From contig JAFXTO010000026.1 of NCBI GenBank assembly GCA_017535725.1, positions 1-56,241 of the forward strand: a DNA stretch of 56,241 nucleotides, read 5' to 3'. Position numbers and translations under genes: made by a program. Positions 2,079 to 53,765 of this stretch are shown in pieces. The first letter of the stretch is position 1. Each line of letters opens with the position of its first letter. The DNA comes from Bacteroidaceae bacterium. Its GTDB lineage: Bacteria; Bacteroidota; Bacteroidia; Bacteroidales; Bacteroidaceae. Below the pieces are notes generated by a model. It was given only the letters and a program-made list of their open reading frames with translations, ran no database searches and was not told the DNA's origin.

Positions 2079-2554
2079 CGTTAAAGCGCTCACTTTTATT
2101 GTGTCATATTCTGCAAATTTCTCAAATAAATCATTTCTTCCTGACGTTTCCGCTGTATTCCCGCATTCGATTCTTACTTGATTGGTCATCTGTTAGTACA
2201 AATTATTGGTGTTCCTTTTTCAAATTTTAACAGGAAAAGAGCGCACCCGTCACCAATCCCTCTCGCGTGCGCGCGGGCACGAGAGAACGGAAAATCTCGT
2301 CACTTCGTCACATTCTCATATAATTTATTGTATTCCAACGCGATAAAGTGTGACAAAGGGTGTGACGGAGCGTGACGAAGTGACGAAATCGTCACATCGT
2401 CACAATAATTCATGGATAATTCGTGGGATAATTTGTGGATAATTTATGTGAGAAAGAGAATTGCTGTTGGGTCGTGAGATGTGGGTCGTTTATCTCAACA
2501 TAGTTCTTATCTTTTTTATCTTCAACGCCGAGGCGCAGAGCCGCGGATGAAGTG

Positions 2555-2643
2555 TCAGCTGCTATGTCATTGTGACCTCAAAATCAGAACCTCTGCGATT
2601 CTGCGCCTCCGCGTTAGAGAAAAAAGGCCAGCTTACGTAGATT
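2555..2643 (+). repeat. Direct repeat copy bracketing the ATPase gene
   Basis: Diverged direct copy of 101-195. Shared landmarks in order are TCAGCTGCTATG, CTCAAAA, CTCTGCG, GCGCCTCCGCGTT and CCAGCTT. The two copies flank the ATPase gene. Versions of the GCGCCTCCGCGTT phrase are, as far as I recall, common between genes in Bacteroidales, so this may be a general intergenic repeat. Confidence 0.5.
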
Positions 2644-2831
2644 CATCTTTACATGAATTTATCATGAATTTAACCATGAATTTATCCATGAATTTATCCA
2701 TGAATTCAGCAAGAATTAGGGTCAAATTCGATACAATTTTCCATAAAATCACCATTTTCGTCACTTCGTCACACTCCGTCACACTTTTCGTCACAATTAT
2801 AAACATCTAATAGTCAATCAGTAGATTCATT

Positions 2832-2866
2832 AAAAATCCCGTCTGTGACGAAGTGACGGGATTTTT
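2832..2866. terminator. Terminator-like hairpin in left arm
   Basis: AAAAATCCCGTC (2832-2843) and GACGGGATTTTT (2855-2866) form a perfect 12-bp stem flanked by A and T runs, so it could terminate in either direction. The loop contains a GTGACGAAG motif. The inverted right arm has its counterpart at 52623-52657. Confidence 0.6.
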
Positions 2867-2922
2867 CTTTCTTTCGTGCCCGCGCGCGTACACGCGCGTA
2901 CGCGAAGGGAGCAAAGCATAAA

Positions 2923-3098
2923 CACATACGGACGTAAGTCCAATAAGATACGTATCTTAAGTCAAGAAGATACGGACGTGATGGCAATAAGATACGTATC
3001 TTAAATCAAGAAGATACTTATGTAAGTCCAATAAGATACGGACGTAATGCCAAACACATACGGACGAGTTGGCAAACACGTATGGACGAGTAGACCGA
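2923..3098 (+). repeat. Eight tandem 22-bp iteron-like units
   Basis: Exact 22-bp periodicity with units starting at 2923, 2945, 2967, 2989, 3011, 3033, 3055 and 3077. The approximate consensus is (c/a)A(g/c)ATACGGACGTnAnTnCAAn. Units 2 and 4 contain the perfect palindrome AAGATACGTATCTT. The array is followed directly by the palindrome TTGACAATTGTCAA. The unit length of about two helical turns, with conserved cores, resembles origin iterons or a multi-site protein-binding array. No replication gene is adjacent. Confidence 0.85.
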
Positions 3099-3213
3099 TT
3101 GACAATTGTCAAACGATCAACCCATCTATATGGATGCTCTACCTCAACATCAAGAATCAGGAGATAAGTATTGATTTCTTGGAAAAAAGGAGAGGGGTTC
3201 CAATTATTTTCAC

Positions 3214-3221
3214 TACCTTTG
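3214..3221 (+). promoter_or_regulatory. -7 box immediately upstream of vsr-like gene
   Basis: TACCTTTG fits the Bacteroidetes -7 form TAnnTTTG and ends only four bases before the ATG at 3226, so the transcript could be nearly leaderless. I see no clear TTTG at the -33 distance. Confidence 0.45.
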
Positions 3222-3225
3222 CCGC

Positions 3226-3768
3226 ATGGACGAAGCAAATAGGAGTCAACGCAGCAAGAATATGGCGGCTATTCGGTCGAAGGACACGAAGCCGGAGATG
3301 ATTGTGCGCCGTGGGCTGTGGAAACGAGGATTCAGATACAGGCTGAATCACAAGCGGTTGCCTGGGCATCCAGACTTGGTGCTGAGGAAATATCGCACGT
3401 GCATCTTCGTGAACGGATGCTTCTGGCACGGGCACCACATCAATTTACAATTTGACGATTTACGATTTACAATTTCTGACTCAGGGTGCTGTAAGATTCC
3501 AAAGACGAACAGGGAATTTTGGGTGACCAAGATTCGGAGGAACAAGGAACGGGACAAGGAGGAACTGCGCCGGTTGGCTGAGATGGGCTGGCACTGCATC
3601 ACGGTGTGGGAGTGCGAGCTGAAGCCGGCGGTAAGAGAACAGACGCTGGACTCCCTCGCCTTCACGTTGAACCACATCTTCCTGCAAGATCATTCGAAGA
3701 GGCAACTCTACGTGACCGCGGAGGAAGAAGACGAGGGTGTGATGATGGCAGCCGAGGAAGAGAGGTGA
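3226..3768 (+). CDS. vsr: Vsr-type DNA mismatch endonuclease
   Basis: Very-short-patch-repair endonuclease family. Vsr nicks next to T:G mismatches that arise by deamination of methylcytosine. Family landmarks are visible: SKDTKPEMIVRR near residue 20, LPGHPDLVL with the expected catalytic Asp at residue 50, GCFWHGHH at 64-71, IPKTNREFW at 91-99, and GWHCITVWECEL further on. An AT-rich segment encoding about 15 residues (72-86) interrupts the region between the GHH motif and CCKIPKTNREFW. Its DNA looks like a short intergenic repeat. The insert may be tolerated as a variable loop, but it lies close to the zinc-ligand region, so activity is uncertain. No cytosine methyltransferase gene is adjacent. 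The C-terminus extends past the usual family end with an acidic tail. Confidence 0.85.
   Translation: MDEANRSQRSKNMAAIRSKDTKPEMIVRRGLWKRGFRYRLNHKRLPGHPDLVLRKYRTCIFVNGCFWHGHHINLQFDDLRFTISDSGCCKIPKTNREFWVTKIRRNKERDKEELRRLAEMGWHCITVWECELKPAVREQTLDSLAFTLNHIFLQDHSKRQLYVTAEEEDEGVMMAAEEER
3440..3480 (+). repeat. AT-rich repeat inside vsr coding sequence
   Basis: The phrases ATTTACAATTTGACGATTTA and CGATTTACAATTT resemble the non-coding DNA at 10560-10580 (ACAATTTGACAATTTACGAT). They differ sharply in composition from the flanking vsr codons. The insertion keeps the reading frame. Confidence 0.55.
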
Positions 3769-3808
3769 AACAGGTATTGAAGATGAGGCTGACGCAGCAG
3801 CTATCCCC

Positions 3809-6004
3809 TCACTTCAGGTGGTCGTTAAACCACTGGATGATACTGCGGTAAAGGTGGAGACGGGTGTTGCCGCCGTAGATGCTGTGGTTGCGGTTGGTGT
3901 AAACGAGTTGCATGAAGGGTTGGTCGGCTTGCACCAACGCTTCGGTAAATTCAGAGGTATTACGCAGATGGACGTTGTCGTCTGCCGAGCCGTGGCAGAG
4001 GAGCAGGGCGCCATGTAGCTTGGAGGCACGGGTCATGGGATTCTCATCGTAGCCCGAGGGGTTCTCCTGCGGGGTGCGCATGAAGCGTTCGGTATATACA
4101 GAGTCGTAGAAACGGTAGTTCGTGACGGGAGCCACGGCGACGCCGGCAGCGAAGACACCACGACCCTCGGTCATAGACATCAGGGTGCAGAAGCCACCGT
4201 AGGACCATCCCCAGATGCCGATATGTTCCTTGTCAACGTAGGGAAGGGAGCCGAGATAGAGGGCGGTCTCCACCTGGTCTTTGGCCTCCAGAACGCCGAG
4301 GTGCTGGTAGGTCTGCTTCTCGAACTGTGCTCCACGTCCTCCTGTACCGCGACCATCGACACAGACGCAGAGGTAGCCCTGCTCCGCAAGGTAACGCTCC
4401 ATCATGGCGCCACCCATATTGCCGACGTTCCACTGGTCCAGCACTTGCTGCGAGCCGGGACCGCTGTACTGGTACATGATGACCGGGTAGCGACGCTGCG
4501 GATTGAAATCCACGGGTTTGACCATGTAGCCGTTCAGCTGCACGCCCTCGCTGGTCTGGAACGTGAAGAACTCTGGCTGAGGCAAGTTTGAACGCTCTAC
4601 CTTCGTCTTCAGTTCTGCATTATCCCTCAGGGTCTGAAGTACCTTGCCACGGGCATCGTTCAACGTGATGACCGGCGGGGTGCTGACGCTGCTGTAAGTG
4701 TTCATGTAGTACTTGAAGTTACGGGAGAAGACGGCGCTGTTGGTACCCTTCTGGGTGGACAGCGGAGTTATCTTGCCCTTGGAATCTGCCCGACAGATGG
4801 TACGATACTGAGGGCCTTCCTGATTGGCGGCAAAGAAACAGTCGCCGGTCTGAGGGTTGTAGCCATAGAAGTCCGTGACGACATACTGTCCGCTGGTCAT
4901 CGTGCGAACGAGCGTCCCGTTGAGGTCATAGAGGTAGAGGTGGTTGTAGCCCGAGCGCTCGCTCATGAGCACAAAGCCATCGTCGAAGAGCTGCAGTGCC
5001 TTGTAGGGCTCTTCCGTGATATAAGGTTCCACCTGGTCGCGCACGATCAGCTTGCACTCCGTGGAGCGCGGGTTGGCGGCATAAATGTCCAAGCGGTCCT
5101 GATGACGGTTCTGAGTCAGCACCAATAGTTTCTCCGGGTCGCTGGTGAAACGGATGCGGGGCACGTAGCCGTCCTTGTCCAAAGGAAGCTTCATCTGGCG
5201 AATGACGTGGCTCTTGATGTCATAGCTGTGAACGGTGACGGTAGAGTTGGTCTCTCCAGCCATCGGATATTTATAGGTATAGGCTCCCGGATAGGTGGCG
5301 AACTCCTGTCGCTGGGGTTCCAGACCTCGGTAGAGGGGGAAGGAGTACTGGGGCACAGCGCTCTCGTCGTAGCGAATCCAGGCAATCATAGTCCCATCGG
5401 CATTGAAGTCAAAGGCACGGTCGAAGCTGAACTCCTCCTCGTTGACCCAATCCGGCTTACCGTTGATGACCTTATTGAACTCGCCGTCCTTAGTGACCTG
5501 ACTTTCGGAATTGTTGTATAACAACTTGACGAGGAAGAGATTACCCTCACGGACGAAGGCTATCATCGTGCCGTCCTTAGAGAAGGCTGGGACCTCTTGC
5601 GGACCGCCGTCACTCAGGGGAACCAGGGTGTGGTTGCGTACATTATATATATAATACACCGCCGTAGCCGAATGGCGATAGATGGGCTTGCGGTCGGTCT
5701 GTATGAGGATGGTCTGCTCATCGGGACTGAGGATATAGCCCGAAACGTGTTCCACGCGGACGTCCCCTATGGTGTTGGTGGCATCGAAGAGCACACCCAC
5801 TTCCTCGCCCGTCCGGAACGAATGAGCCACAATACGATTACCCTCCAACTGGGCGTAGCGTTCGCCGTCGGCCAGGGGACGCACTCCATGGATACTGGAT
5901 GCGCCGTATTCACCACGCAGGATTTGCTCTAAAGTAAGGCTTCCAGCCTCCAAATGCATCGCAGCAAACAGCATTGTGAGCAGCGAGAGAAGAAAATGTT
6001 TCAT
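3809..6004 (-). CDS. Dipeptidyl peptidase IV (S9B family)
   Basis: Serine exopeptidase that removes Xaa-Pro or Xaa-Ala dipeptides in the periplasm. About 731 residues when started at the ATG at 6004, where MKHFLLSLLTMLFAAMHLEA makes a signal peptide. The longer frame back to 6157 would place 51 non-signal residues first and would run over the promoter, so I reject it. The N-terminal half is beta-propeller-like (repeated SPDEQT, SKDGTMIAFV, NADGTMIAWI blades). The C-terminal alpha/beta hydrolase has GWSYGG (Ser about 601), GSADDNVH (Asp about 676) and NRNHSIYGG (His about 707), the S9 catalytic triad. It is transcribed divergently from gdhA. Confidence 0.93.
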   Translation of the reverse strand: MKHFLLSLLTMLFAAMHLEAGSLTLEQILRGEYGASSIHGVRPLADGERYAQLEGNRIVAHSFRTGEEVGVLFDATNTIGDVRVEHVSGYILSPDEQTILIQTDRKPIYRHSATAVYYIYNVRNHTLVPLSDGGPQEVPAFSKDGTMIAFVREGNLFLVKLLYNNSESQVTKDGEFNKVINGKPDWVNEEEFSFDRAFDFNADGTMIAWIRYDESAVPQYSFPLYRGLEPQRQEFATYPGAYTYKYPMAGETNSTVTVHSYDIKSHVIRQMKLPLDKDGYVPRIRFTSDPEKLLVLTQNRHQDRLDIYAANPRSTECKLIVRDQVEPYITEEPYKALQLFDDGFVLMSERSGYNHLYLYDLNGTLVRTMTSGQYVVTDFYGYNPQTGDCFFAANQEGPQYRTICRADSKGKITPLSTQKGTNSAVFSRNFKYYMNTYSSVSTPPVITLNDARGKVLQTLRDNAELKTKVERSNLPQPEFFTFQTSEGVQLNGYMVKPVDFNPQRRYPVIMYQYSGPGSQQVLDQWNVGNMGGAMMERYLAEQGYLCVCVDGRGTGGRGAQFEKQTYQHLGVLEAKDQVETALYLGSLPYVDKEHIGIWGWSYGGFCTLMSMTEGRGVFAAGVAVAPVTNYRFYDSVYTERFMRTPQENPSGYDENPMTRASKLHGALLLCHGSADDNVHLRNTSEFTEALVQADQPFMQLVYTNRNHSIYGGNTRLHLYRSIIQWFNDHLK

Positions 6005-6039
6005 AGTCGAAATATAACGTTTATTCGTGATTTCTGCCA

Positions 6040-6071
6040 CAAAAGTAGCGTTTGTTTTCCAAATAACCAAA
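6040..6071 (-). promoter_or_regulatory. Promoter of dipeptidyl peptidase gene
   Basis: Read on the minus strand, TTTG (6071-6068), a 20-nt spacer and TACTTTTG (6047-6040) fit the Bacteroidetes -33/-7 consensus. The ATG lies 36 bases further on. Confidence 0.75.
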
Positions 6072-6162
6072 CTTTCGGCACTTTTGATGCATCTTTTGAC
6101 GAAAAAAGCATCATTCAGCAGGAAGGAACAGGTGGCATGGACTGAAAAAAAGTGCAAAAAGT

Positions 6163-6194
6163 TTTGGCTGATACAAAATTAAAGGCTACATTTG
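6163..6194 (+). promoter_or_regulatory. Promoter of gdhA
   Basis: TTTG (6163-6166), a 20-nt spacer and TACATTTG (6187-6194) match the consensus. Transcription starting just downstream would give a leader of about 280 nt that contains the whole 8-bp repeat tract. Confidence 0.75.
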
Positions 6195-6240
6195 CGGCGT
6201 AAAAGGAAGATATCGGAGAAAACGCATCCACAAACGAACT

Positions 6241-6472
6241 TATAAACTCAAAAACTCATAAACTTATAAACTCAAAAACTAATAAACTTGTAAACTTGTA
6301 AACTTGTAAACTTATAAACTTGTAAACTCATAAACTCAAAAACTCATAAACTCATAAACTTACAAACTTATAAACTTGTAAACTCATAAACTTATAAACT
6401 TGTAAACTCATAAACTTGTAAACTCAAAAACTCATAAACTCAAAAACTCATAAACTCATAAACTTATAAACT
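6241..6472 (+). repeat. 29 phased copies of an 8-bp repeat in gdhA leader
   Basis: Uninterrupted 8-bp units of the form NNNAAACT run from 6241 to 6472. The variable triplets are mainly TAT, CAA, CAT and TGT. Every unit keeps AAACT. The tract ends 7 bases before the gdhA ATG and lies downstream of the gdhA promoter, so it should be transcribed. Confidence 0.9.
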
Positions 6473-6479
6473 TACTCTC

Positions 6480-7817
6480 ATGAAAATTGAAACCATCATG
6501 GCCCATCTGGAGGCCAAACATCCAGGAGAGAAGGAGTACCTGCAAGCTGTGCGCGAGGTACTCATGAGTATCGAAGAGGTCTATAACCAGCATCCCGAGT
6601 TCGAGCGAGCCAAGCTCATCGAGCGTCTGGTGGAACCCGAACGTATCATCACCTTCCGCGTGCCCTGGGTGGACGACAAGGGTGAGGTGCAGGTGAACCT
6701 GGGTTACCGCGTACAGTTCAACAGTGCCATCGGCCCCTACAAAGGCGGCTTGCGGTTCCACGCCTCGGTGAACCTCTCGATTCTGAAGTTCCTGGGCTTC
6801 GAGCAGACCTTCAAGAACGCCCTGACGACCCTGCCTATGGGTGGCGGCAAGGGAGGTTCGGACTTCAGCCCCCGCGGCAAGAGCGATGCGGAAATCATGC
6901 GTTTCTGCCAGGCGTTCATGAGCGAACTCTATCGCTACATCGGCCCGGAGATTGACGTGCCTGCAGGCGACATCGGAGTAGGAGCCCGCGAAATTGGCTA
7001 TCTCTTCGGACAATACAAGAAGCTGACACGCGACTGGAGTGGTGTGCTCACGGGCAAGGGCCTGGAGTACGGCGGCTCGCTGGTGCGTCCAGAGGCCACA
7101 GGCTTCGGCGGCCTCTACTTCGTGAACGAAATGCTGAACACGCACGGTAAGGAAATCAAAGGCAAGACGGTAGCCATCAGCGGATTCGGCAATGTGGCAT
7201 GGGGCGCCGCAACCAAGGCCACTCAGCTGGGTGCCAAGGTGATGACTATCAGCGGCCCCGATGGATACATCTATGATCCCGAAGGCATCAGCGGCGAGAA
7301 GATTGACTACTTGTTGGAGCTCCGCAATTCAGGTAACGACATCTGTGAGCCCTACGCCGAGGAATTCCCCGAAGCTACCTTCTATCCTGGCCGCAAGCCC
7401 TGGGAGGTCAAATGCGACATCGCGCTGCCCTGCGCCACCCAGAATGAGCTGAACGGCGACGATGCACGCCAACTCATCCAGAACGGCGTGCAATGCGTAG
7501 GCGAGATTTCCAATATGGGTTGTACGCCAGAGGCCATCGATGCTTTTATCGAAGCCAAGATGATCTTTGCCCCGGGCAAGGCCGTCAACGCCGGAGGCGT
7601 AGCTACTTCCGGACTTGAGATGAGCCAGAACGCCATGCACATCAGTTGGAGCGCAGAGGAAGTGGACCAGCGCCTGCACCATATCATGCACGCCATCCAC
7701 GCCCAGTGCGTCAAGTACGGAACGGAGCCCGACGGATATGTCAACTACGTGAAGGGTGCAAACATCGCCGGATTCATGAAGGTCGCAAAAGCAATGATGG
7801 CACAAGGAATTGTCTGA
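6480..7817 (+). CDS. gdhA: Glutamate dehydrogenase (hexameric, probably NADP)
   Basis: Catalyses reversible reductive amination of 2-oxoglutarate to glutamate, a main ammonia-assimilation route in Bacteroidales. The 445-residue length is typical of the bacterial hexameric enzyme. Visible motifs: GPYKGGLRFH (about residues 83-92), LPMGGGKGGSDF (about 117-128), the DVPAGDIGVG active-site segment, and a Rossmann-type ISGFGNVAWG (about 235-244). The start is the ATG at 6480, directly after the repeat tract. It has its own promoter about 290 bp upstream and a strong palindrome downstream, so it is probably monocistronic. Confidence 0.96.
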   Translation: MKIETIMAHLEAKHPGEKEYLQAVREVLMSIEEVYNQHPEFERAKLIERLVEPERIITFRVPWVDDKGEVQVNLGYRVQFNSAIGPYKGGLRFHASVNLSILKFLGFEQTFKNALTTLPMGGGKGGSDFSPRGKSDAEIMRFCQAFMSELYRYIGPEIDVPAGDIGVGAREIGYLFGQYKKLTRDWSGVLTGKGLEYGGSLVRPEATGFGGLYFVNEMLNTHGKEIKGKTVAISGFGNVAWGAATKATQLGAKVMTISGPDGYIYDPEGISGEKIDYLLELRNSGNDICEPYAEEFPEATFYPGRKPWEVKCDIALPCATQNELNGDDARQLIQNGVQCVGEISNMGCTPEAIDAFIEAKMIFAPGKAVNAGGVATSGLEMSQNAMHISWSAEEVDQRLHHIMHAIHAQCVKYGTEPDGYVNYVKGANIAGFMKVAKAMMAQGIV

Positions 7818-7843
7818 TTCGACCTTTGCGGTTCTAACTATAA

Positions 7844-7878
7844 ATTACCGAGTCCACTTCGGAAGTGGACTCGGTAAT
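7844..7878. terminator. Perfect 35-bp palindrome after gdhA
   Basis: Arms of 17 bp (starting ATTACCGAGTCCACTTC) pair perfectly around a single central G at 7861. It lies 27 bases after the gdhA stop, so it is probably the transcript end, although no long T run follows. A protein-binding palindrome is an alternative. Confidence 0.55.
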
Positions 7879-7880
7879 TA

Positions 7881-8147
7881 TTAAGTAGGTATTCAAAATT
7901 AGTTTACATAATTATCCGTAGGTGCGTTTCACGTCTTTTAATTTCTCTTTGGCGCATATTTTCCTCTTATCCTCAGTCACATAGCTCGCTATTACCTCCG
8001 TCGCCATAGGAGTTATGGCTCCCCTCATCGGGTACGGATGGCCCAAGGGCAATCCTCTGAAAGCCCCTCTTCGCCTTCGGCTAAAAAAAAAATCTGCATC
8101 CAAATAGAAACTAAAATACATAAAACTAATTTTGAACACCTACTTTA
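7881..8147. mobile_element. MITE-like element with 25-bp terminal inverted repeats
   Basis: The termini 7881-7905 and 8123-8147 match in inverted orientation at 23 of 25 positions (core GTTCAAAATTAGTTT or GTATTCAAAATTAG on the two sides). They bound 267 bp with no transposase. A minus-strand frame across the interior includes ITPMATEVIASYVTEDKR but has no domain I recognise. Size, terminal symmetry and lack of coding capacity fit a non-autonomous mobile element between gdhA and tRNA-Val. I cannot see a clear target duplication. Confidence 0.6.
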
Positions 8148-8206
8148 TAGGACAATATACCACATAAAAAAAGCCTTGAGAAGAAAGAGCTGGGGAAGGG
8201 AGAACG

Positions 8207-8281
8207 TGGGCGCTGACGGATTCGAACCGCCGACCCTCTGCTTGTAAGGCAGATGCTCTGAACCAGCTGAGCTAAGCGCCC
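8207..8281 (-). tRNA. tRNA-Val (anticodon TAC)
   Basis: The minus strand folds as a cloverleaf. The acceptor 5' arm GGGCGCT pairs with the 3' AGCGCCC, the D-arm region contains AGCTCAGCTGGTTCAGAGC, the anticodon stem-loop is TCTGC-CTTACAA-GCAGA with anticodon TAC, and the T arm holds GGTTCGAATCC. CCA is not encoded. Confidence 0.95.
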
Positions 8282-8484
8282 TGGGCGCTCTTTCCTCTCA
8301 AAGGCGGTGCAAAAGTACTGCTTTTCGCTGATACCTCCAAATATTTCAACCCTTTTTTTCATTTTTCATGGCAGAAACGTGATTTTTTAAGGTCTTGAGG
8401 TGCTATTTGCCACATAAGATGGTACAAGAAAGCTAAGCCCAAGTCGGTCATAAGGATTAATTTGGGTTAAATGGCCGTACATAT

Positions 8485-8524
8485 AAAAAAGCGCCCATCC
8501 AATTCCCGAAGGAACGGATGGGCG
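8485..8524 (-). terminator. Rho-independent terminator of the rplM-tsf operon
   Basis: On the minus strand, CGCCCATCC and GGATGGGCGC pair with an inner TTCC-TTCG-GGAA hairpin and are followed by TTTTTT. It starts 20 bases after the tsf stop. Confidence 0.9.
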
Positions 8525-8543
8525 TAAATTCTGTCTTTATGGC

Positions 8544-9539
8544 TTATTCAGCGCGGAGAGTGAAGCGCTTGAAAGCAACAATAGTCAGTGCTGAGTCGAT
8601 GCTCTTCAGGTACTGAGCCACGGTCTGGTTCTTGTCCCAGATGTACTCCTGCTCCAGGAGGCAGCTCTCCTTGAAGAACTTCTTCAGACGACCCTGTGCG
8701 ATGTTCTGAATCATCTGCTCGGGCAGGTTGGCAGCCTTCTCAGCAGCCACCTTCTCCTTGATCTCGCGAACCATAGCGGCCTGCTCGGGAGTAATCCAAC
8801 CCTTAGCCATGTTGGACTCGATGTGGTCCTCGCTGTCCACGTGGGCGGGATTGACACCAGCCTTGCGGATGGCGGCCTCCACAGCCTTGGCAACCTGCTC
8901 TTCCTTTGTCTTCTCGATGGCAACGCGCAGTTCGCTGTCCTTCACTTCCTGAGGCACGCTGCTCTCGTCGATGGCAACGGGGCTTGCGCTGGCAATCTGC
9001 ATAGCGATGTTCTTACCGACGGTGGCGTCTTCAACAGCCTTGTTGAAAGCAACCATGGTGCAGAGGGTGTGCTTGCCCTGGTGGTCGTAGGTGGCAATGA
9101 ATTCGCCTTCGACAACATTGTAGCCGTCGAGTTCCATCTTCTCACCGGTGATACCGCTGCGTGCAACAACGGCATCCTGAACGGTAGCATCACCCATAGG
9201 CAGAGCCTTCACCTCCTCCAGTGTCTTGCAGCGTGCAGCCACAGCAGCATCGAGGATGTCCTGAGTCAGCTTGACAAAGTCAGCATTGTTGGCAACAAAG
9301 TCAGTTTCGCACTTCAGGGCGATGATGGCAGCAAAATTGCCATCCACCTTGACAACGACGCAACCTTCGGCTGCCTCGCGGTCGCTGCGCTTGGCAGCAA
9401 CAGCCTGACCCTTCTTGCGGATGATTTCGATGGCGGGTTCGAGTTCGCCATTGCTCTCTTCGAGAGCTTTCTTACAATCTGCCAGACCTGCACCAGTCAT
9501 TTCGCGCAGTTTCTGGATATCTTTGATTGATACAGCCAT
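8544..9539 (-). CDS. tsf: Elongation factor Ts
   Basis: Nucleotide-exchange factor for EF-Tu. The 331 residues begin with the UBA-like segment IKDIQKLREMTGAGLADCKK (residues 5-24), followed by the signature CETDFVANNADF near residue 77. The core is the two-subdomain dimerisation fold. It is last in rplM-rpsI-rpsB-tsf. A GC-rich hairpin sits only about 10 nt before the ATG and could influence its expression relative to rpsB. A strong terminator follows. Confidence 0.97.
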   Translation of the reverse strand: MAVSIKDIQKLREMTGAGLADCKKALEESNGELEPAIEIIRKKGQAVAAKRSDREAAEGCVVVKVDGNFAAIIALKCETDFVANNADFVKLTQDILDAAVAARCKTLEEVKALPMGDATVQDAVVARSGITGEKMELDGYNVVEGEFIATYDHQGKHTLCTMVAFNKAVEDATVGKNIAMQIASASPVAIDESSVPQEVKDSELRVAIEKTKEEQVAKAVEAAIRKAGVNPAHVDSEDHIESNMAKGWITPEQAAMVREIKEKVAAEKAANLPEQMIQNIAQGRLKKFFKESCLLEQEYIWDKNQTVAQYLKSIDSALTIVAFKRFTLRAE

Positions 9540-9549
9540 TTTCTTTTTC

Positions 9550-9564
9550 GCGGGCTTGGCCCGC
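9550..9564 (-). promoter_or_regulatory. Hairpin just upstream of tsf start
   Basis: GCGGGC-CAA-GCCCGC on the minus strand ends 10 bases before the tsf ATG and is followed by an A-rich GAAAAAGAAA. A 6-bp GC stem at this position could affect initiation or mark a processing site. Confidence 0.45.
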
Positions 9565-9574
9565 AGTTTTTATA

Positions 9575-9663
9575 GTTTAATGTTTAATGAAAATTGTTTA
9601 AAGTCTAAGGAATAAACTCAATGTGTAGTTACCACATTAAACTTTAAACCTTAAACTTTAAAC
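9575..9663. repeat. Heptamer repeats in rpsB-tsf gap
   Basis: GTTTAAT units at 9575 and 9582 and a GTTTAAA at 9596 face four NTTAAAC units (9636-9663) in opposite orientation, so the gap can fold on itself. The same family, in the same inverted arrangement, occurs at 47205-47312. Confidence 0.65.
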
Positions 9664-9669
9664 TAAGCT

Positions 9670-10482
9670 TTATGCCTCTTCGGGAGCTTCAGCCTCCTCA
9701 GCCTCTTCGGCTTCGGCCTCATCTTCTACACGTGCGCTCTTGCGTCCACCGCGCTCAGCCTTTTCCTCAGCAGCCTCGGTGTCCACGCGCTCAGCCTTAC
9801 GCTCCTCGATACCTTCGGCGATAGCCTCGCAGCATGCGTCGAGGATGACTTCGATGCTCTTGCTGGCGTCGTCGTTAGCGGGGATGACGAAGTCCACGTT
9901 GTCGGGGTTGGAGTTGGTGTCCACGATACCGAAGACGGGGATTCCCAGACGGTTGGCCTCGCGAACAGCAATCTGCTCCTTCAGGACGTCAACGACGAAG
10001 AGGGCAGCGGGCAGACGGGTGAGGTCAGCCACAGAACCGAGGTTCTTCTCCAGCTTGGCACGCTGGCGGCTGATCTGCAGAGCCTCGCGCTTGCTGAGGT
10101 TGGCGTAGGTGCCATCAGCGGTGAGCTTGTCGATGTTAGCCATCTTCTTCACAGCCTTGCGGATGGTGGCGAAGTTGGTGAGCATGCCACCGGGCCAGCG
10201 CTCGATGACGTAGGGCATGTTGATAGACGTAGCCTTCTCGGCGACGACGGTCTTGGCCTGTTTCTTAGTAGCAACAAAAAGGATTTTGCGGCCGCTCTTG
10301 GCGATGTTCTTCAGGGCCTCTGCAGCCTCGTCAATCTTCACAACGGTCTTGTGGAGGTCGATGATATGAATGCCATTCTTCTCCATGAAGATATAAGGAG
10401 CCATGGCGGGATTCCACTTACGCTTGAGGTGTCCGAAGTGACTACCAGCCTCAAGGAGTGTATCAAAGTTTGTTCTTGACAT
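9670..10482 (-). CDS. rpsB: 30S ribosomal protein S2
   Basis: Component of the small ribosomal subunit. It starts MSRTNFDTLLEAGSHFGHLK and carries the S2 signatures FGHLKRKWNPAMAPYIF and GIPVFGIVDTNSNPD. At 270 residues it is longer than typical S2 because of a charged C-terminal tail rich in Glu and Ala (from about residue 225). A 236-bp gap separates it from rpsI, and a repeat-containing gap separates it from tsf. Confidence 0.97.
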   Translation of the reverse strand: MSRTNFDTLLEAGSHFGHLKRKWNPAMAPYIFMEKNGIHIIDLHKTVVKIDEAAEALKNIAKSGRKILFVATKKQAKTVVAEKATSINMPYVIERWPGGMLTNFATIRKAVKKMANIDKLTADGTYANLSKREALQISRQRAKLEKNLGSVADLTRLPAALFVVDVLKEQIAVREANRLGIPVFGIVDTNSNPDNVDFVIPANDDASKSIEVILDACCEAIAEGIEERKAERVDTEAAEEKAERGGRKSARVEDEAEAEEAEEAEAPEEA

Positions 10483-10718
10483 AATAATGTTTTAATGAAT
10501 AATGGTTTACTTTCTTTTGGGTTAACTGTTAACCAATCCTGCGGTAACTATATTGGACAATTTGACAATTTACGATTGGACAATTGCCTTGAGGTCCGCA
10601 CGATTTAGATACTAAACGCTTGCCGATTTAAGGATTTAAGGATTTTATATTTAAAGATTTAAGCGGCATCCGCCAACTTGCAATCAATAAAATGTAAATC
10701 GATAAATCGTAAATAGAA
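10483..10718. other. AT-rich gap between rpsI and rpsB
   Basis: No gene seen. It holds short repeat phrases of the ACAATTTGACAATTTACGAT type, GGATTTAAGGATTTAAGG, and the palindrome GGTTAACTGTTAACC near 10520. An rpsB leader or extra promoter could lie here. I cannot define one. Confidence 0.5.
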
Positions 10719-11105: not shown

Positions 11106-11111
11106 TTCTGT

Positions 11112-11573: not shown

Positions 11574-11742
11574 TCTTGTTGTTAAACTTGTTTTTGTTGT
11601 ACTACTAATGTTTCTTGTCACCGGGCTTTCACCGGCACGCTTTTCATACTGCGATTCCCTAACCACTTTCCCAGGCCAATGAAAAAGCTATTAACACGCA
11701 GATAATGAGCCTCTTGATGGCTCTCTGATAATAATCGGCTTG

Positions 11743-41842: not shown

Positions 41843-41846
41843 GGAT

Positions 41847-42014
41847 GTTGAAACGTTGAAACGTTGAAACATTGAAAAGTTGAAAGGTTGAAACGTTGAA
41901 ACGTTGAAAAGTTGAAAAGTTGAAACATTGAAAAGTTGAAATGTTGAAATGTTGAAATGTTGAAATGTTGAAAAGTTGAGTAATTGAATAAGTGAAAGAT
42001 TGAAATATTGAGAA
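41847..42014 (+). repeat. 21 phased copies of an 8-bp repeat before the parvulin gene
   Basis: 8-bp units of the form (g/a)TTGAAAN run from 41847; the first 16 are strong (to 41974) and the later ones degenerate while keeping phase. The tract begins 4 bases after the guaB stop and ends 8 bases before the next ATG, so it fills the gap. Confidence 0.85.
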
Positions 42015-42022
42015 TTGAAAAA

Positions 42023-44829: not shown

Positions 44830-44869
44830 TCGTTTAGTATTTAGAATTTAGGTTTAGTGTTCAGGTTTA

Positions 44870-46849: not shown

Positions 46850-46893
46850 GAAATAATCCGTTATTCCGTTAATCGCTAAACCGTTAATCGTAT

Positions 46894-47190
46894 ATGGCTC
46901 TCTTCTCAACTCGCAAACCGCGTCGCTTCCGTGGCGTCCATATCTATACCTCCGAGCGTCAGGACAAGCTCGATCGCCTCGTTGCAGAGGCCAAGCGTGA
47001 AGAACTCATTGCTCAGGGTAAGACTCCTGAATACCGCCCGGATATCGAGTCCTATCGTGGTAAGTTCGCCCAGAACCTGCGTAAGGCAGACCCCGACCGC
47101 AAGCGCCTTCATCCCGGTGTCGCCATCGCGCTCATCGTCGTGCTGCTCATCATCTGGCACTACCTCCTGACCGGTTCTTTCCGGTTCTAA
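46894..47190 (+). CDS. Small conserved-looking membrane protein
   Basis: No named family recognised. 98 residues: a basic N-terminus (MALFSTRKPRRFRGVHIYTS), a charged helix, and a single C-terminal transmembrane segment (GVAIALIVVLLIIWHYLLTG, about 75-94). It looks tail-anchored with the basic body in the cytoplasm. It sits between the OstA-like gene and mutL in the same direction. Codon use is like its neighbours, so I consider it real. Confidence 0.7.
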   Translation: MALFSTRKPRRFRGVHIYTSERQDKLDRLVAEAKREELIAQGKTPEYRPDIESYRGKFAQNLRKADPDRKRLHPGVAIALIVVLLIIWHYLLTGSFRF

Positions 47191-47204
47191 CTTGCTTACG
47201 CAAC

Positions 47205-47312
47205 GTTTAAAGTTTAAGGTTTAAAGTTTAATGTAAACACCTTCTACTTTAGACTCAGCAACAGCAAAACTCAAAAGTATCCACATTAAACATTAAACTT
47301 TAAACATTAAAC
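47205..47312. repeat. Opposed heptamer arrays before mutL
   Basis: Four GTTTAAN units (47205-47232) and, after 52 bp, four NTTAAAC units (47285-47312) in inverted orientation. About 25 of 29 positions can pair, giving a large AT-rich stem upstream of mutL. Confidence 0.75.
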
Positions 47313-47331
47313 TGCAGCTTCGCCGCCCTCC

Positions 47332-49116
47332 ATGGATATCATTCAACTCCTCCCCGATAGCGTCGCCAATCAGATAGCCGCAGGCGAAGTCATCCAGCGA
47401 CCAGCCTCCTTGGTCAAGGAACTGGTGGAGAATGCTGTGGATGCCGGTGCCCATCGCATCGATGTCATCGCCATCGACGCGGGTCGCACCAGCCTGCAGG
47501 TCATCGACGATGGATGCGGCATGAACGAGACAGATGCCCGTCTGGCCTTCGAGCGCCACGCTACCAGCAAGATACGTCAGGCAGCGGACCTCTTCACCCT
47601 CACCACGATGGGTTTTCGCGGCGAGGCGTTGCCATCTATCGCTGCTGTCGCCCAGGTGGAGTTGCAGACACGCATGGCCGACCAGGAGCTGGGCACCCGC
47701 CTGATTGTAGAAGCCTCCAAGGTGCTCGCTCAGGAACCCGTGGCCTGTCCCGTGGGCGCCAACTTCCTCGTCAAGAACCTCTTCTACAACGTTCCTGCCC
47801 GTCGCAAGTTCTTGAAATCCAACGCTACGGAGCTCTCGAATATCACCTCAGAGTTGGAGCGCATCGTCCTCGTACATCCCGATATTGCCTTCACGCTGAC
47901 CTCCAATGGTGCCACGCTGATGAGCCTGACACCCTCCAGCCTGAAAGGTCGCATCTCCGCCGTATTCAGCCAGCGCTTGTCGGACAAACTGCTGCCTGTT
48001 GACGTCCAGACGCCGATGGTGAACATCCACGGCTTCGTGGGCATCCCAGAGTCTTCCCGCAAACGAGGGGCACAGCAGTTCTTCTTCGTCAACCATCGCT
48101 ACATGCGGCATCCTTATTTCCACCGTGCCGTGCAGGAGGCTTTCGCCCAGCTCATACCCTCCGACGAACAGGTGCCTTACTTCCTCTATCTCGAAGTGGC
48201 ACCCGCTGAGATTGACGTCAATATCCACCCGACGAAGACGGAAATCAAGTTCGAGAACGAGCAGGCCATCTGGCAGATTCTGCTGGCCGCCGTGCGCGAG
48301 TCGCTGGGTCGCTTTGCTGCCGTGCCCTCCATCGACTTCGACACCGAAGGGCGTCCGGCCGACATGCCCGTCTACAACCCCCTCGACACTTCTTCCGCTC
48401 CTCCTCGCCAGCCGCAAGTCCACGTAGACCCCACCTACAACCCCTTCCACACCCCTCGCACTTCGGCGCCTTCAGGATGGGAACAACTCTACCGCGACCT
48501 CCAGAAGCCTGCCGCGGACGTGCCTCCCTTGGAGGTCGAAACACCTCCGGCCGCCTCTGCCTCGCTGACGCAGTACCGCGGTCAGTACCTTCTCTCTACA
48601 GCTGAGGAAGGACTGCTCTTCGTTGACCAGCACCGTGCCCACCTGCGTATCCTCTACGACCGTTACCTTGCCCAGTCAACCTCTTCGGCGCTACCTTCCC
48701 AGCGGTTGCTCTTCCCCGAGGTCATCCAGCTCTCTGCCACCGATGCTGCCACGCTCACTGTCGTACAGTCTGATCTCCAGAGCCTTGGCTTCGACCTCAG
48801 CGACCTCGGCGGTGGCACCGTCAGCATCCTCGGCATGCCCTCTGGACTCGAAGGCCTCGACCCGCAGACCCTGCTCCTCGACCTGCTTGCCGCCGCTGCT
48901 GACCGTGGCACCCTGCCCTCTGAAGCCATTCACGGACGGTTGGCACTCGTGTTGGCTCGTGCTGCTGCCATCCCCGTGGGGCAGGTGCTTAGCCCCGTGG
49001 AGCAGGACGATCTCCTGCGCCAGCTCGCAACCACCTCAGACCCCGTACATACGCCCGACGGTCACCTCATACAGGCCGTGCTCTCACAAGACACCATAGA
49101 TAAGCTATTCAAATAA
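47332..49116 (+). CDS. mutL: DNA mismatch repair protein MutL
   Basis: Coordinates mismatch repair after MutS binding. 594 residues. GHKL ATPase motifs: ELVENAVDAGAHRID (about 30-44), VIDDGCGMNETD, and TTMGFRGEALPSIAAV. The C-terminal dimerisation domain reads DQHRAHLRILYD where the MutL endonuclease motif would be DQHA-x2-E-x4-E. The acidic residues and later Cys/His motifs are absent as far as I can see, so this MutL probably does not nick DNA itself. The linker (about 345-400) is Pro-rich. Confidence 0.95.
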   Translation: MDIIQLLPDSVANQIAAGEVIQRPASLVKELVENAVDAGAHRIDVIAIDAGRTSLQVIDDGCGMNETDARLAFERHATSKIRQAADLFTLTTMGFRGEALPSIAAVAQVELQTRMADQELGTRLIVEASKVLAQEPVACPVGANFLVKNLFYNVPARRKFLKSNATELSNITSELERIVLVHPDIAFTLTSNGATLMSLTPSSLKGRISAVFSQRLSDKLLPVDVQTPMVNIHGFVGIPESSRKRGAQQFFFVNHRYMRHPYFHRAVQEAFAQLIPSDEQVPYFLYLEVAPAEIDVNIHPTKTEIKFENEQAIWQILLAAVRESLGRFAAVPSIDFDTEGRPADMPVYNPLDTSSAPPRQPQVHVDPTYNPFHTPRTSAPSGWEQLYRDLQKPAADVPPLEVETPPAASASLTQYRGQYLLSTAEEGLLFVDQHRAHLRILYDRYLAQSTSSALPSQRLLFPEVIQLSATDAATLTVVQSDLQSLGFDLSDLGGGTVSILGMPSGLEGLDPQTLLLDLLAAAADRGTLPSEAIHGRLALVLARAAAIPVGQVLSPVEQDDLLRQLATTSDPVHTPDGHLIQAVLSQDTIDKLFK

Positions 49117-49123
49117 AAAGACC

Positions 49124-49155
49124 CACCCCTCACCCTCCCTGTGAGGGAGGGGGTG
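49124..49155. terminator. REP-like hairpin after mutL
   Basis: CCCTCCCT (49133-49140) and AGGGAGGG (49144-49151) form a perfect stem with loop GTG, within a longer CACCCCT / GGGGGTG symmetry. It lies 8 bases after the mutL stop, so it may end that transcript. The same arms recur at 49236-49254 inside trpS and, more loosely, in ispF. Confidence 0.6.
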
Positions 49156-49196
49156 ATTACACCTGCAAATAAGAATATAATACAAATAATAAATAA

Positions 49197-50345
<1,149 letters not shown>

Positions 50346-50371
50346 GAAACACCTATTCACCATTTCTCCCG

Positions 50372-50445
50372 TCATCTGCCTAAACAACAGCTACGGATTC
50401 CACGGGGCCGTACAAGTTGTGTTTAGGCAGATGATTCGTTTTTTT
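50372..50445 (+). terminator. Long terminator hairpin after trpS
   Basis: TCATCTGCCTAAACA pairs with TGTTTAGGCAGATGA (ending 50434), extended inward by ACGG/CCGT pairing, and followed by a seven-T run. It isolates ftsZ from trpS. Confidence 0.92.
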
Positions 50446-50519
50446 GTAAAACGAACCCTTGCAAGGCTTGCAGAGCGATTTTTAACACTTTTTTCGTGCT
50501 CCATTTCAAGAGAAATATG

Positions 50520-50527
50520 TACTTTTG
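50520..50527 (+). promoter_or_regulatory. -7 box upstream of ftsZ
   Basis: TACTTTTG, 51 bases before the ATG. The -33 region is weak. Confidence 0.55.
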
Positions 50528-50578
50528 CACGCGAATTTGCCTAAAGAACTATCAATCATTTTTAAGGAGTAGATAACT

Positions 50579-52093
50579 ATGGAAAAGATCTATGGAACAG
50601 CTGGGAACGCTAATTCCCAGCAGATGAGGGATTCACGTCACGAGAGTGACGCTGGAATCAGTTTCAACCTGCCGACTGACAAGTCCGTAGGAATTATCAA
50701 GGTAGTGGGTGTTGGAGGTGGTGGCTGCAATGCTGTCAGAAACATGTTCGTGGAGGGAATCACGAACGTAACCTACGCAGCCTGCAATACCGATAGCCAA
50801 CAGCTGGTGCGTTGTCCGGTTCCCGTAAAGCTGCAACTGGGAAGCGACGGACTGGGAGCTGGCGGTAATCCCGACAAAGGGCGTGAAGAAGCAGAACTGA
50901 CTCGCGACCGCATCCGCGAAATGCTGAGCGACGGCACCAAAATGGTGTTCGTCACCGCTTCGATGGGCGGTGGCACAGGAACCGGGGCGGCTCCCATCGT
51001 GGCACAAGTAGCAAAGGAAATGGGCATCCTGACAATAGGCATCGTCACCATCCCCTTCTCTTTCGAAGGCAAACAGAAAATCCTGAAGGCCCTGAGAGGC
51101 ATGGAAGAGATGCGCAAGAACGTGGATGCGCTGCTGGTCGTGCAGAACGACAAGCTGACGGGCGGCAACTTCAAGGAACTACCCGACGGAGTACGGCAAC
51201 GCATTCCCATGAAGGACAAATTCAAGGAAGCGGACAACATCCTGAAGGATGCCGCCAAGAGCATATCCGAGCTCATCACACTACACACGGACGGCGACAT
51301 CAACCTGGACTTCCGCGATGTGGAGACGACGATGAAAAACGGCGGCGACGCCATCATGGCGGCAGGACGTGCCAACGGCGAGCATCGTGTGGAACAAGCC
51401 ATCATCCAGGCCCTGGACTCTCCCCTACTCTACGGCAACGACATCGGCCGCGCCCGCCGCATCCTCTTCGACATCTACACCAGCGAGGAGGAACCGCTGT
51501 ATATGGATGAAATGCAGGAGATTGACGACTTCATGAAGCAACTCGACCCAGAGATCGAAGTCATCTGGGGCACCTCCACCGACAACCAGCTGGGCAAGGA
51601 CGTCAAGGTAATCATCTTAGCAGCAGGCATGGCGCATGGTATGCAGGCACCCAGCCAAGAGAAGAGTCCACAGTCCCCTCTGGACGACGAATACTTCCAA
51701 ACCCTCATGCAGCAACTCTATATGAGTCCGAAAGCTCGCATGCGAACACTTGTAGAGAAGCATCTCGAATTCAAGGACGAAGAGCCGCAGGGGGTATCCG
51801 CAAATGCGACTGATGCTGCAGAAGAAACAGATGCAGACGGCACCAAGGAAGGAGCGGAAGGGACAAACACCACAGAAGGGACAGAAGGGACGGACACCAA
51901 GGTAGGAACGGGCATCACGGATGACCCAGAAAGTCATGCAAACACGCCGAACTCAGAAGGCCCTAATCATCCCACCAATCCAAACGGTTCCACAATACCA
52001 TCCAATCCAGATACCGACCCCAGTCCCAAGAAATCCTTCCTCGAAAAAGCAATGGACTGGCTCTACGAACTCACCAATGTAGACCACCAATAA
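50579..52093 (+). CDS. ftsZ: Cell division protein FtsZ
   Basis: Tubulin-like GTPase that forms the division ring. 504 residues with GVGGGGCNAV (about 44-53), the tubulin signature GGGTGTG (130-136), and the T7-loop region INLDFRDVET. The globular part ends near residue 360. The C-terminal linker is unusually long (about 130 residues) and has Thr/Glu/Gly-rich runs (GTNTTEGTEGTDTKVG). A basic-hydrophobic tail SFLEKAMDWLYEL may be the membrane-partner peptide. The gene stands alone between trpS and repeat DNA rather than after ftsQ and ftsA. Confidence 0.93.
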   Translation: MEKIYGTAGNANSQQMRDSRHESDAGISFNLPTDKSVGIIKVVGVGGGGCNAVRNMFVEGITNVTYAACNTDSQQLVRCPVPVKLQLGSDGLGAGGNPDKGREEAELTRDRIREMLSDGTKMVFVTASMGGGTGTGAAPIVAQVAKEMGILTIGIVTIPFSFEGKQKILKALRGMEEMRKNVDALLVVQNDKLTGGNFKELPDGVRQRIPMKDKFKEADNILKDAAKSISELITLHTDGDINLDFRDVETTMKNGGDAIMAAGRANGEHRVEQAIIQALDSPLLYGNDIGRARRILFDIYTSEEEPLYMDEMQEIDDFMKQLDPEIEVIWGTSTDNQLGKDVKVIILAAGMAHGMQAPSQEKSPQSPLDDEYFQTLMQQLYMSPKARMRTLVEKHLEFKDEEPQGVSANATDAAEETDADGTKEGAEGTNTTEGTEGTDTKVGTGITDDPESHANTPNSEGPNHPTNPNGSTIPSNPDTDPSPKKSFLEKAMDWLYELTNVDHQ

Positions 52094-52353
52094 CCCCCAC
52101 CTCTCAGCACCATTCTCGTTGTCAGGAATCTGCATGGCCTCCATCTTGTTCTCAAAAACGATATAATGGTCGTTTTCGTTCATATTCAAAGCGGATAGCC
52201 CACCTGTGTGTCGGGTTATCCGCTCATGTCGTTAATCATCGAGGTTGGTCATTATACGATCTTGCCCAACTCATAAAGTCACAACGGTACGACTGAGGTT
52301 GTGTGTAACGAAACAAGTAGATCCTTTGAATAATAGATATAGGCGCTTAAACC
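52094..52353. other. Non-coding DNA after ftsZ
   Basis: No supported gene. It holds a hairpin-like AGCGGATA ... TATCCGCT (about 52191-52225) that may end ftsZ transcription. A minus-strand frame from 52189 runs into ftsZ and has no recognisable domain. Confidence 0.5.
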
Positions 52354-52369
52354 GTTTGACAACTGTCAA

Positions 52370-52567
52370 ACAATTTACTCGTCCGTCCGTGTTTGCCTAC
52401 TCGTCCGTACGAATTTGCCTTTTCGTCCGTATGTGTTTGGCATTACGTCCGTATCTTATTGGACTTACATACGTATCTTATTGATTTAAGATACGTATCT
52501 TATTGCCATCACGTCCGTATCTTATTGACTTAAGATACGTATCTTATTGGACTTACGTCCGTATGTG
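52370..52567 (-). repeat. Nine tandem 22-bp iteron-like units (inverted)
   Basis: Nine 22-bp units with boundaries at 52370, 52392, 52414, 52436, 52458, 52480, 52502, 52524 and 52546. Read on the minus strand they correspond one by one to the left array, plus one extra unit at the palindrome side. The palindrome AAGATACGTATCTT is preserved in two units. Confidence 0.85.
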
Positions 52568-52622
52568 TTTATGCTTTGGTCTTACGCGTACGCGCGTATA
52601 CGCGCGCGGGCACGAAAGAAAG

Positions 52623-52657
52623 AAAAATCCCGTCACTTCGTCACAAACGGGATTTTT
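52623..52657. terminator. Terminator-like hairpin in right arm
   Basis: AAAAATCCCGT (52623-52633) and ACGGGATTTTT (52647-52657) form an 11-bp stem. Counterpart of 2832-2866. Confidence 0.6.
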
Positions 52658-52804
52658 AATAAATCTACTGATTGACTATTAGATGTTTATAAGTGTGACG
52701 AAAAGTGTGACGAAGGTGATAAAATGGTGACGAAGTGACGAAAACGTCCAAATTATGATAAATTCATGGTTAATTTTTGATTAATTTATGGTTGAATTCA
52801 TGAT

Positions 52805-53320
52805 TTAAGTTTCGGTTGTTTACAAAAACCTTAACGAACTTCCGCTGAATTATAAACAATGTGCTTGATCTTTCAAGAACCCCTCTTTCGATATTTAGCT
52901 CTCCGAGCCTTTGTGCCGATCTCATGGCTTTGTGCCTGTGAGCAAGCTCCCGCACCAGCCACGACATCATCACACATTGCTACGCAACGTTAAACATCTT
53001 CAGAGGCAAAGAACTTCCGCTGAAAAAATGACTCCGTGCTCCATACTTGGAGAACACCGCTTCGCTAAAAAAGCTGCGCATTGCTAAATACGGTTTTTCA
53101 GCCCGAAGGGCGGTGTTTTTTCCACCATGATGGCTGAGTTCTTGAAGGGTCAAGCGTCGCAGAGCGCCGAGCGTCGGAACGAAACCATACTGAGCTTCTG
53201 AATTGTGCAAGAGCTTGCTCTTAGGCACAAGGCCGGAAGAACAGGATGTTAGGCCGAAGGCCACAGCCGTCATGAGTGGTGTTTTTATTGTTTTTGTCTT
53301 CATTATATCAACTTCCGAAA
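52805..53320. mobile_element. 516-bp insertion in right repeat arm
   Basis: The 14-bp sequence GTTGAATTCATGAT occurs at 52791-52804 and again at 53321-53334, bracketing 516 bp absent from the left arm, which reads through the equivalent point without interruption. The ends show weak inverted similarity (TTTCGG near 52810, CCGAAA near 53315). The interior has no transposase and contains the phrase ACTTCCGCTGAA twice (about 52837 and 53008). The duplication fits an insertion event or a deletion-prone repeat. Confidence 0.6.
52980..53303 (-). pseudogene. Possible lipoprotein gene fragment
   Basis: The frame begins MKTKTIKTPLMTAVAFGLTS followed by Cys, a plausible lipoprotein signal, but the rest has no recognisable domain and runs over repeat-like DNA. 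It lies entirely inside the 516-bp insertion. It may be a remnant or a chance frame. Confidence 0.25.
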
Positions 53321-53411
53321 GTTGAATTCATGATAAATTCATGTAAAGATGAATCCTTCTCACCTACAACTCAGCAGCAGCAATTCTTCTCTTCTTACAT
53401 AAATTATCCAT

Positions 53412-53445
53412 ACGCTCGGCTCGAAGAGACGCTTGACACTTCAAG
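53412..53445. repeat. 34-bp CTTGA-stem element, copy 1
   Basis: Starts CGCTCGG and ends in the stem-loop CTTGA-CACT-TCAAG. It interrupts the right arm relative to the left. Other copies are at 53766 and 55385. Confidence 0.6.
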
Positions 53446-53765
53446 AATGAATTCCCGAATTTTCCATGAATTATTGTGACAATGTGACGATTTCGTCACT
53501 TCGTCACTCTCCGTCACACCCTTCGTCACAGTTTATTTTATTGGAACACAACAAATTATATTAGAATGTGACGAAGTGACGAGATTTTCAGCACTCTCGT
53601 GCCCGCGCGCTCGCGCGAGAACACATTCGTTTTTGTCGTTTTGCAGAAGCAAATATACGAAGTGTCTTTGGAATCACGCCGATTCGGGTGTGAAAAGTGC
53701 GAGACAGCCCCCTTGATGGGTGATTTTGATGCTTTTTCTCCCCTACATTATCAATTATACATTAT

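Follow-up and report, generated by a model that had tools for sequence, protein, structure and literature searches.

The inverted arms around a bacterial housekeeping region are two copies of a scattered repeat with possible ties to BT4734-like primase genes

What are the two long sequences that lie in opposite orientation around a 49-kb housekeeping region of a Bacteroidaceae bacterium? The window analysed here is the whole of contig JAFXTO010000026.1 (56,241 nt; assembly GCA_017535725.1), referred to as C34 among the 72 contigs of a 2.9-Mb draft genome, G000, that is estimated to be 76% complete. An earlier reading of this DNA, the original prediction, took the two arms either for recombination brackets of an invertible core or for an unknown element inserted twice, in opposite orientations. 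Comparison across the genome supports the second proposal: instead of forming a pair of brackets, the arms belong to a repeated element with at least 22 gene-less copies scattered through the genome. With moderate confidence we favour the view that they are non-autonomous, origin-like copies of an element whose fullest form carries a BT4734-like primase together with a VapE-like helicase.

Anatomy and genomic copies of the element

The arms, A at 2260-3114 and B at 52354-53619, are homologous in reverse complement, as had been proposed. Their alignment in a two-sequence BLASTN comparison yields homologous blocks and not scattered short matches: one of 417 bp at 87% (2687-3093 against 52802-52397, E 4e-145) and one of 164 bp at 90% (2260-2423 against 53619-53456, E 2e-60). 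The longest exact run in common is 54 bp, which bears out the near-identity over tens of bases noticed earlier, and the motifs then named, namely a GC-rich tract, TGACG clusters, a hairpin, a 22-bp array and a palindrome, do recur in the same order and in opposite orientation.

Inverted GTGACGAAGTGACG words form the two stem-loop modules of the element, which further comprises a GC-alternating tract, the 22-bp repeat array and a palindrome. Arm A, read on the plus strand, opens with a GC-alternating tract (2264-2275) inside the left stem-loop module (2260-2425), whose inverted TGACG words lie at 2298-2311 (minus) and 2372-2385 (plus), 74 bp apart from start to start. A variable middle (2426-2755) follows, containing a repeat common to positions 96-200 (2549-2650) and CATGAATTTATC repeats (2652-2717). 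The right module (2756-2862; words at 2759-2772, minus, and 2845-2858, plus) encloses a terminator-like hairpin with the letters AAAATCCCGTC/GACGGGATTTTT. Beyond it come a second tract of GC-alternating purines and pyrimidines (2881-2904), the array of 22-bp repeats, ATACGGACGTAAGTCCAATAAG and variants, delimited by Tandem Repeats Finder (TRF; 2926-3091), and the terminal palindrome GATTGACAATTGTCAAAC (3097-3114; family consensus GTTTGACNNNNGTCAAAC). The same parts occur on the minus strand in arm B: the left module (53456-53619), a middle with other nested repeats (52745-53455), the right module (52626-52744), the GC-alternating tract (52583-52608), the array (52376-52570, TRF) and the palindrome GTTTGACAACTGTCAAAC (52354-52371), 261 bp past the end of the ftsZ open reading frame (ORF). 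The words of the right module are spaced by 86 bp in arm A and 96 bp in arm B, and the middles, of ~330 and ~710 bp, are unlike. Rfam at gathering score reports no described RNA family in the arms, its matches in the window being one tRNA and one L13 leader only. A protein-coding role of the 22-bp array was considered and set aside on reading alone.

With an E cut-off of 0.001, arm A matches G000 in 129 BLAST stretches. There are 64 exact copies of the word GTGACGAARTGACG, all of them within 22 sites; allowing one mismatch raises the count to 75, where the reversed-pattern control gives 1. When the modules are recognised by four words of alternating strand (minus, plus, minus, plus; 2 mismatches tolerated), 14 of the 22 sites have both; the palindrome GTTTGACNNNNGTCAAAC is present at 21 (within 2 mismatches) and a period-22 array at 20 (loose unit filter); two further sites, C51 and C48:15858, have the array and palindrome only. 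The copies measure ~0.6-1.6 kb and lie between ORFs by reading of the 22 sites, sharing the short, intergenic and non-coding character of miniature inverted-repeat transposable elements (MITEs). Other repeats have invaded the middle of several of them, and the middle holds a PD-(D/E)XK gene in the C10 copy (L046:5587-6174) and a short ORF in the C16 copy. Several copies sit at contig ends, as expected, since repeats break assemblies.

The original prediction held that its pairing would be trivial if the arm were abundant genome-wide. With 22 sites in a 2.9-Mb draft the pairing is not special, so that among the earlier proposals only the one of copies of a single element survives. Four contigs carry two copies each, 20-50 kb apart; the copies point the same way in C33, C37 and C67 and opposite ways only in C34, and the C34 pair therefore looks like one chance arrangement among several. 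Nor is the core at 3115-52353 a conserved unit in relatives. Orthologues of the window at ~49.3-50.3 kb and of the glutamate dehydrogenase gene (6.5-7.8 kb) are separated by ~3.3 kb on contig C99 of G019 and by ~22.5 kb in G016, and in G127 the DPP IV/dehydrogenase, MutL/synthetase and FtsZ genes are found on three contigs. The opposite orientation of the arms and their 87% match over 417 bp would suit an inversion system dedicated to the 49-kb core, but the repeats are not specific to the segment, the arms are 13% diverged, the core is not conserved as a unit, and no recombinase was found among ten window proteins scanned with Pfam, the neighbours of both arms included. We reject this interpretation as extremely improbable. 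Inversion by homologous recombination between the arms would be possible in principle, by analogy with the inversion between PINSR repeats reported in Prevotella intermedia (PMC4755523).

Gene-bearing copies in sister species

Sister species place a primase and helicase gene between or beside the same kind of sites, and all four genes scanned (from G019, G003, G123 and G150) combine PF08800, the BT4734-like primase family, with PF05272, the VapE-like domain. On contig C38 of G019 a gene of 756 aa with both domains (2302-4572) lies between two modules, one 30 bp past its stop codon (2184-2271) and the other 86 bp before its start (4659-4748), with the palindrome beyond the latter module at 4874-4891; a period-22 array is missing from this copy. 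The gene-less sites C1, C40 and C132 of G019 have the same four words as C38, enclosing a middle of 121 bp against 2,387 bp. Comparison with C38 identifies the middle of arm A as the place where gene-bearing relatives hold the primase-helicase gene. The fullest form, on G003 C30, runs through palindrome, 22-bp array, GC tract, module, primase-helicase gene, module and an HU-like gene. The primase-helicase gene is all that lies between the modules of G019 C38 and G003 C30, with no integrase or transposase, and a third locus, G003 C31 (L294), has a 414-aa ORF flanked by two modules. An HU-HIG gene follows the second module in all six loci scanned for it, which are six of the seven with words on both sides; G000 has 8 matches to HU-HIG, 7 of them over the cut-off.

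The words and palindromes are private to each lineage. Among 139 genomes of the genus the word GTGACRARRTGACG occurs 67 times in G000, 23 times in G019, 8 times in G162, 6 times in G120 and 3 times or fewer in the rest, and sequence-similar matches to the right half of the element were found in 4 of 61 genomes, G000 included. G003 has 26 occurrences of its own word, AACTACACTTTWNCACC, with up to 1 mismatch, and eight other genomes have 0-1 each. Each of the three species has a palindrome of its own: that of G019, GTTTGACCCGGGTCAAAC, stands at 8 of 8 sites, and that of G003, TTATTCGGTCGCGACCGAATAA, at 14 of 18 word-bearing loci, the gene-bearing C30 included (both with up to 2 mismatches; 20 G003 loci were examined, 2 of them without the word, and the word sites C2:36528 and C5:69172 were left out). 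Gene-bearing and gene-less copies are thus shown to share their cis anatomy, private words and palindrome alike, inside the single genomes of G003 and G019. Among relatives it is the architecture that is retained, with letters differing from one to the next.

Could these be ordinary MITEs, derived from a transposon whose transposase was not found, the inverted modules being their terminal repeats and the minisatellite a captured one? The closest precedent, BrickBuilt of Porphyromonas gingivalis, has 19 intergenic copies with a 23-nt tandem minisatellite between leader and tail; it differs in its IS5-like terminal repeats and single repeat sequence, and the available text of its description reports no primase partner (PMC4596501). 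The multi-copy, intergenic nature and size of our element fit a MITE, as do the ~72% likeness of its inverted modules and its lineage-specific expansion, 8 or fewer words being found in each of the 137 genomes other than G000 and G019. The inverted modules are not terminal, however, since the array and palindrome are situated beyond them, and the gene between the modules in relatives is a primase-helicase and not a transposase (no genome-wide transposase survey was made). Arrays of other letters also sit upstream of primase genes in other genera. The BrickBuilt terminal inverted repeat GAGACCTTTGCA has no match inside the arms with up to 2 mismatches (3 in the window, where 5.6 are expected by chance), and the period is 22, not 23; BrickBuilt was accordingly rejected as a full match. 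We regard a MITE origin as improbable.

Arrays at BT4734-like genes and shared chromosomal sites

PF08800 is found in 76 of 101 genomes of the genus. To a sample of 40 genes, full-length and fetched roughly best first among the matches listed, we added those of G019 C38 and G000 C16, for a total of 42. At a TRF score of 60 or more and a minimum of 2.5 copies, period-22 arrays are found in the upstream regions of 18 of 39 BT4734-like genes and in the downstream regions of 3 of 39; gene bodies have none (0/42), and tiles of the window core one (1/55). The repeat at L210 is part of its stem-loop words, and setting it aside lowers the upstream count to 17. Of 30 integrase-family control genes, none has an array upstream and one has an array downstream (18/39 against 0/30 upstream, Fisher p 4e-6), a contrast tempered by the choice of controls, which are the best-scoring tyrosine recombinases and are unmatched in the length of flanking non-coding DNA. 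The unit sequence differs in nearly every array, those of L228 (G141) and L229 (G003) being alike. Taking one hand-chosen unit per locus, in and outside the genus and with L210 left out, we find dyad symmetry above shuffles at p <0.05 in 8 of 21 units (Fisher combined p 5e-7), which suggests that part of the arrays may consist of binding sites for a dimer.

The association extends beyond the genus. The G003 primase matches 123 records of plasmid and phage collections, and four of seven loci taken from these have a period-22 array upstream of the BT4734-like gene (at score 50, one with 2.4 copies); their sources are Bacteroides, Parabacteroides and a phage-labelled contig from the human gut. 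The matching plasmid records may be circularised pieces of chromosome. A search of viral contigs with the same primase gave 2 pattern matches, of which 0 were confirmed, and a search at distant sensitivity of 50,697 phage and 72,556 plasmid records, from which records of G000 may have been left out, did not find the arm itself. A flavobacterium, Kaistella pullorum, has a 22-bp array (L085:7577-7671) whose ACATACGGACG core is also that of the window array; it lies upstream of a gene that is HU-like by reading.

BT4734-like genes also recur at a fixed address. In 11 of the 42 loci the gene stands directly before an lpxD-like gene, and 8 of these 11 have an upstream 22-bp array (G000 C16, at L123:1994-6478, and L216, L220, L222, L224, L225, L227, L229, L233, L235 and L241; lpxD was identified by Pfam in G000 only, and pyrF on the other side by reading). 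The G000 C16 gene, between the pyrF-like gene and lpxD, has a 22-bp array of other letters. The lpxD neighbourhood is a fixed site for the BT4734-like gene across species.

The sites of the window arms are themselves occupied in relatives. Versions of different letters lie 3' of DPP IV in G000 (with vsr between), G003 (array only), G019 (in opposite orientation) and G127, and 3' of ftsZ in G000 and G127. The two G127 layouts (L159:7094-9000 and L355:2300-3000) join an array and a stem-loop at the same sites as the window arms, with a clear GC tract at the ftsZ site. G016 has no period-22 array 3' of DPP IV or ftsZ, although undefined element ends preclude a precise empty-site comparison. Shared sites of this kind mean either that the same places have been targeted repeatedly or that the letters have turned over where old copies stood, and the sites may be reused.

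Recurrence at the 3' ends of genes would also be expected of an intergenic repeat of the host that serves at transcription ends or in the structure of the chromosome, spread by host recombination and connected with primase genes through a common preference of site. Repetitive extragenic palindromic sequences (REP) and the bacterial interspersed mosaic elements (BIME) are host intergenic repeats of this sort. Another model is the 188-bp PINSR of P. intermedia, likewise from the Bacteroidales, lineage-specific, present in many intergenic copies and named at some inversion and translocation sites; it has no terminal inverted repeats, and neither an array nor a gene-bearing relative is reported in the available text (PMC4755523). 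The palindrome side of our element faces the 3' end of the neighbouring gene at 12 of 16 sites that could be resolved by ORF reading (a further 4 were ambiguous and 2 were left out of the count), a terminator-like hairpin lies in the right module, and the G127 layouts follow both DPP IV and ftsZ. A host repeat would leave two facts unaccounted for, the words and palindrome common to gene-bearing and gene-less copies within a genome and the enrichment of arrays upstream of primase genes, which was not seen at control genes, and we consider it unlikely.

The core between the arms (3115-52353) lies outside the element and encodes, by Pfam in a sample of 10 window proteins, Vsr, DPP IV, glutamate dehydrogenase, a C25 peptidase, RecQ, MutL, a class I tRNA synthetase, FtsZ and others. 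The tRNA and the L13-Bacteroidia ribosomal leader recognised by Rfam are both on its minus strand (8207-8281 and 11653-11723). It also contains two arrays of 8-bp units (6237-6474 and 41847-42021; AACTTATA in ~30 copies and GTTGAAAC in ~16) and, upstream of the tRNA synthetase gene, a ~150-bp repeat (49110-49270) with many partial matches in five relatives, among the matches listed. The HEPN gene (PF05168) is situated outside the core, as the original prediction had it, and near this gene a 232-bp direct repeat at 97% (53820-54051 and 55595-55825) is accompanied by shorter repeats on to 56157.

A primase-helicase as the candidate driver

If the arms are, as we favour, gene-less copies of a primase-helicase element, their stem-loops would serve as start points of DNA synthesis by that protein, on the analogy of the archaeal plasmid pRN1. 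There, a stem-loop of ~100 bp with a 21-nt stem and a 58-nt loop begins 54 bp past the gene for ORF904, an archaeo-eukaryotic-type primase fused to a helicase; it is required for replication, and its structure, not its sequence, is kept among relatives (PMC4234260). The modules of G019, G003, G150, G123 and G111, at 90-125 bp, similarly keep the structure of a stem-loop of ~100 bp beside the gene while the letters change. The differences are that pRN1 has one stem-loop after its gene and no 22-bp array in the available description (PMC4234260), whereas here stem-loops can flank both sides, the sites are chromosomal and many copies are gene-less, all known from sequence alone. The 22-bp repeats, two helical turns apart, might act as binding sites in the manner of plasmid iterons. 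A combination of iterons with stem-loops (ssiA and ssiB) used by a primase and a helicase is described for oriV of the plasmid RSF1010, which employs three separate proteins and is likened here by description, not by protein comparison (PMC4234260). Gene-less copies would be recognised in trans, now or formerly, by a gene-bearing relative.

Folded as single DNA strands, 15 of 18 modules score z -3.0 or lower against dinucleotide shuffles (left and right modules: -3.6 and -3.2 in arm A, -4.2 and -3.0 in arm B), values that are descriptive and not a test, and partly circular, because the modules were picked for their inverted words. GTG, the priming triplet of pRN1, or its complement CAC occurs in 17 of 18 modules, a count made with no chance control and not taken as evidence, since one or the other would be present in most DNA of similar length.

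A number of observations weigh against the favoured explanation, beginning with the circularity of the fold scores and the choice of array controls already mentioned. The folds of the upstream module of G003 C30 (-2.3) and of both G092 modules (-1.5 and -1.6) are weak. Gene-less G003 copies mostly have one module, not two. Two of the seven loci read with words on both sides, L226 and L245, are weak cases, and at a third, L243 (G150), the next gene is not HU-HIG. In the assembled part of G000 no gene-bearing copy with GTGACGAAGTGACG words was found, which is inconclusive given an assembly 76% complete, and its two PF08800 genes, that of C16 and that of C61, a contig phage-like by reading, are not near such words. 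Neither the ends of the element nor a target-site duplication or an empty site at sequence level could be defined. Finally, the double-module form is above chance but in the minority, and most BT4734-like genes are without it. Among the 37 loci with usable flanks, upstream and downstream flanks share at least 4 11-mers in 5, against 13 of 1332 mismatched pairs, and at least 2 in 12, against 66 of 1332; the remaining 32 loci, G019 C38 with its 3 included, fall below the cut-off of 4. None of the 11 lpxD-adjacent loci reaches this two-sided cut-off, though 8 have arrays.

More tentatively, and as a proposal that may well prove wrong, the dispersal of these sequences would define a class of Bacteroidales elements spread by a primase-helicase instead of a transposase. 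Each family would possess a private address composed of stem-loop words, palindrome and 22-bp array, and the gene-less copies would consist of the address alone and work as stray sites in the chromosome where replication starts, driven in trans. The 22-bp spacing would then be a fixed physical ruler, with letters turning over at the same chromosomal sites, as 3' of DPP IV in G000, G003, G019 and G127 and 3' of ftsZ in G000 and G127.

In the open-licence literature the nearest known relatives are BrickBuilt, PINSR, pRN1 and the members of a survey of archaeo-eukaryotic primases, and no publication was found there that connects BT4734-like genes with 22-bp arrays or stem-loops, or that reports copies lacking the gene. 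The survey covers the BT4734-like family to which the gene-bearing forms belong and predicts a helicase in the VapE-like domain; its available text describes neither cis sites nor gene-less copies (PMC5862659). Part of the BT4734-like primase genes, common in the genus, can now be tied to a recognisable cis anatomy, and a possible source is offered for a class of unexplained intergenic repeats. It becomes testable whether a primase-helicase acts on, and multiplies, gene-less sites across a chromosome, and why the length of a 22-bp repeat persists while its sequence does not. If the sites fire, they would amount to extra origin-like points in the chromosome.

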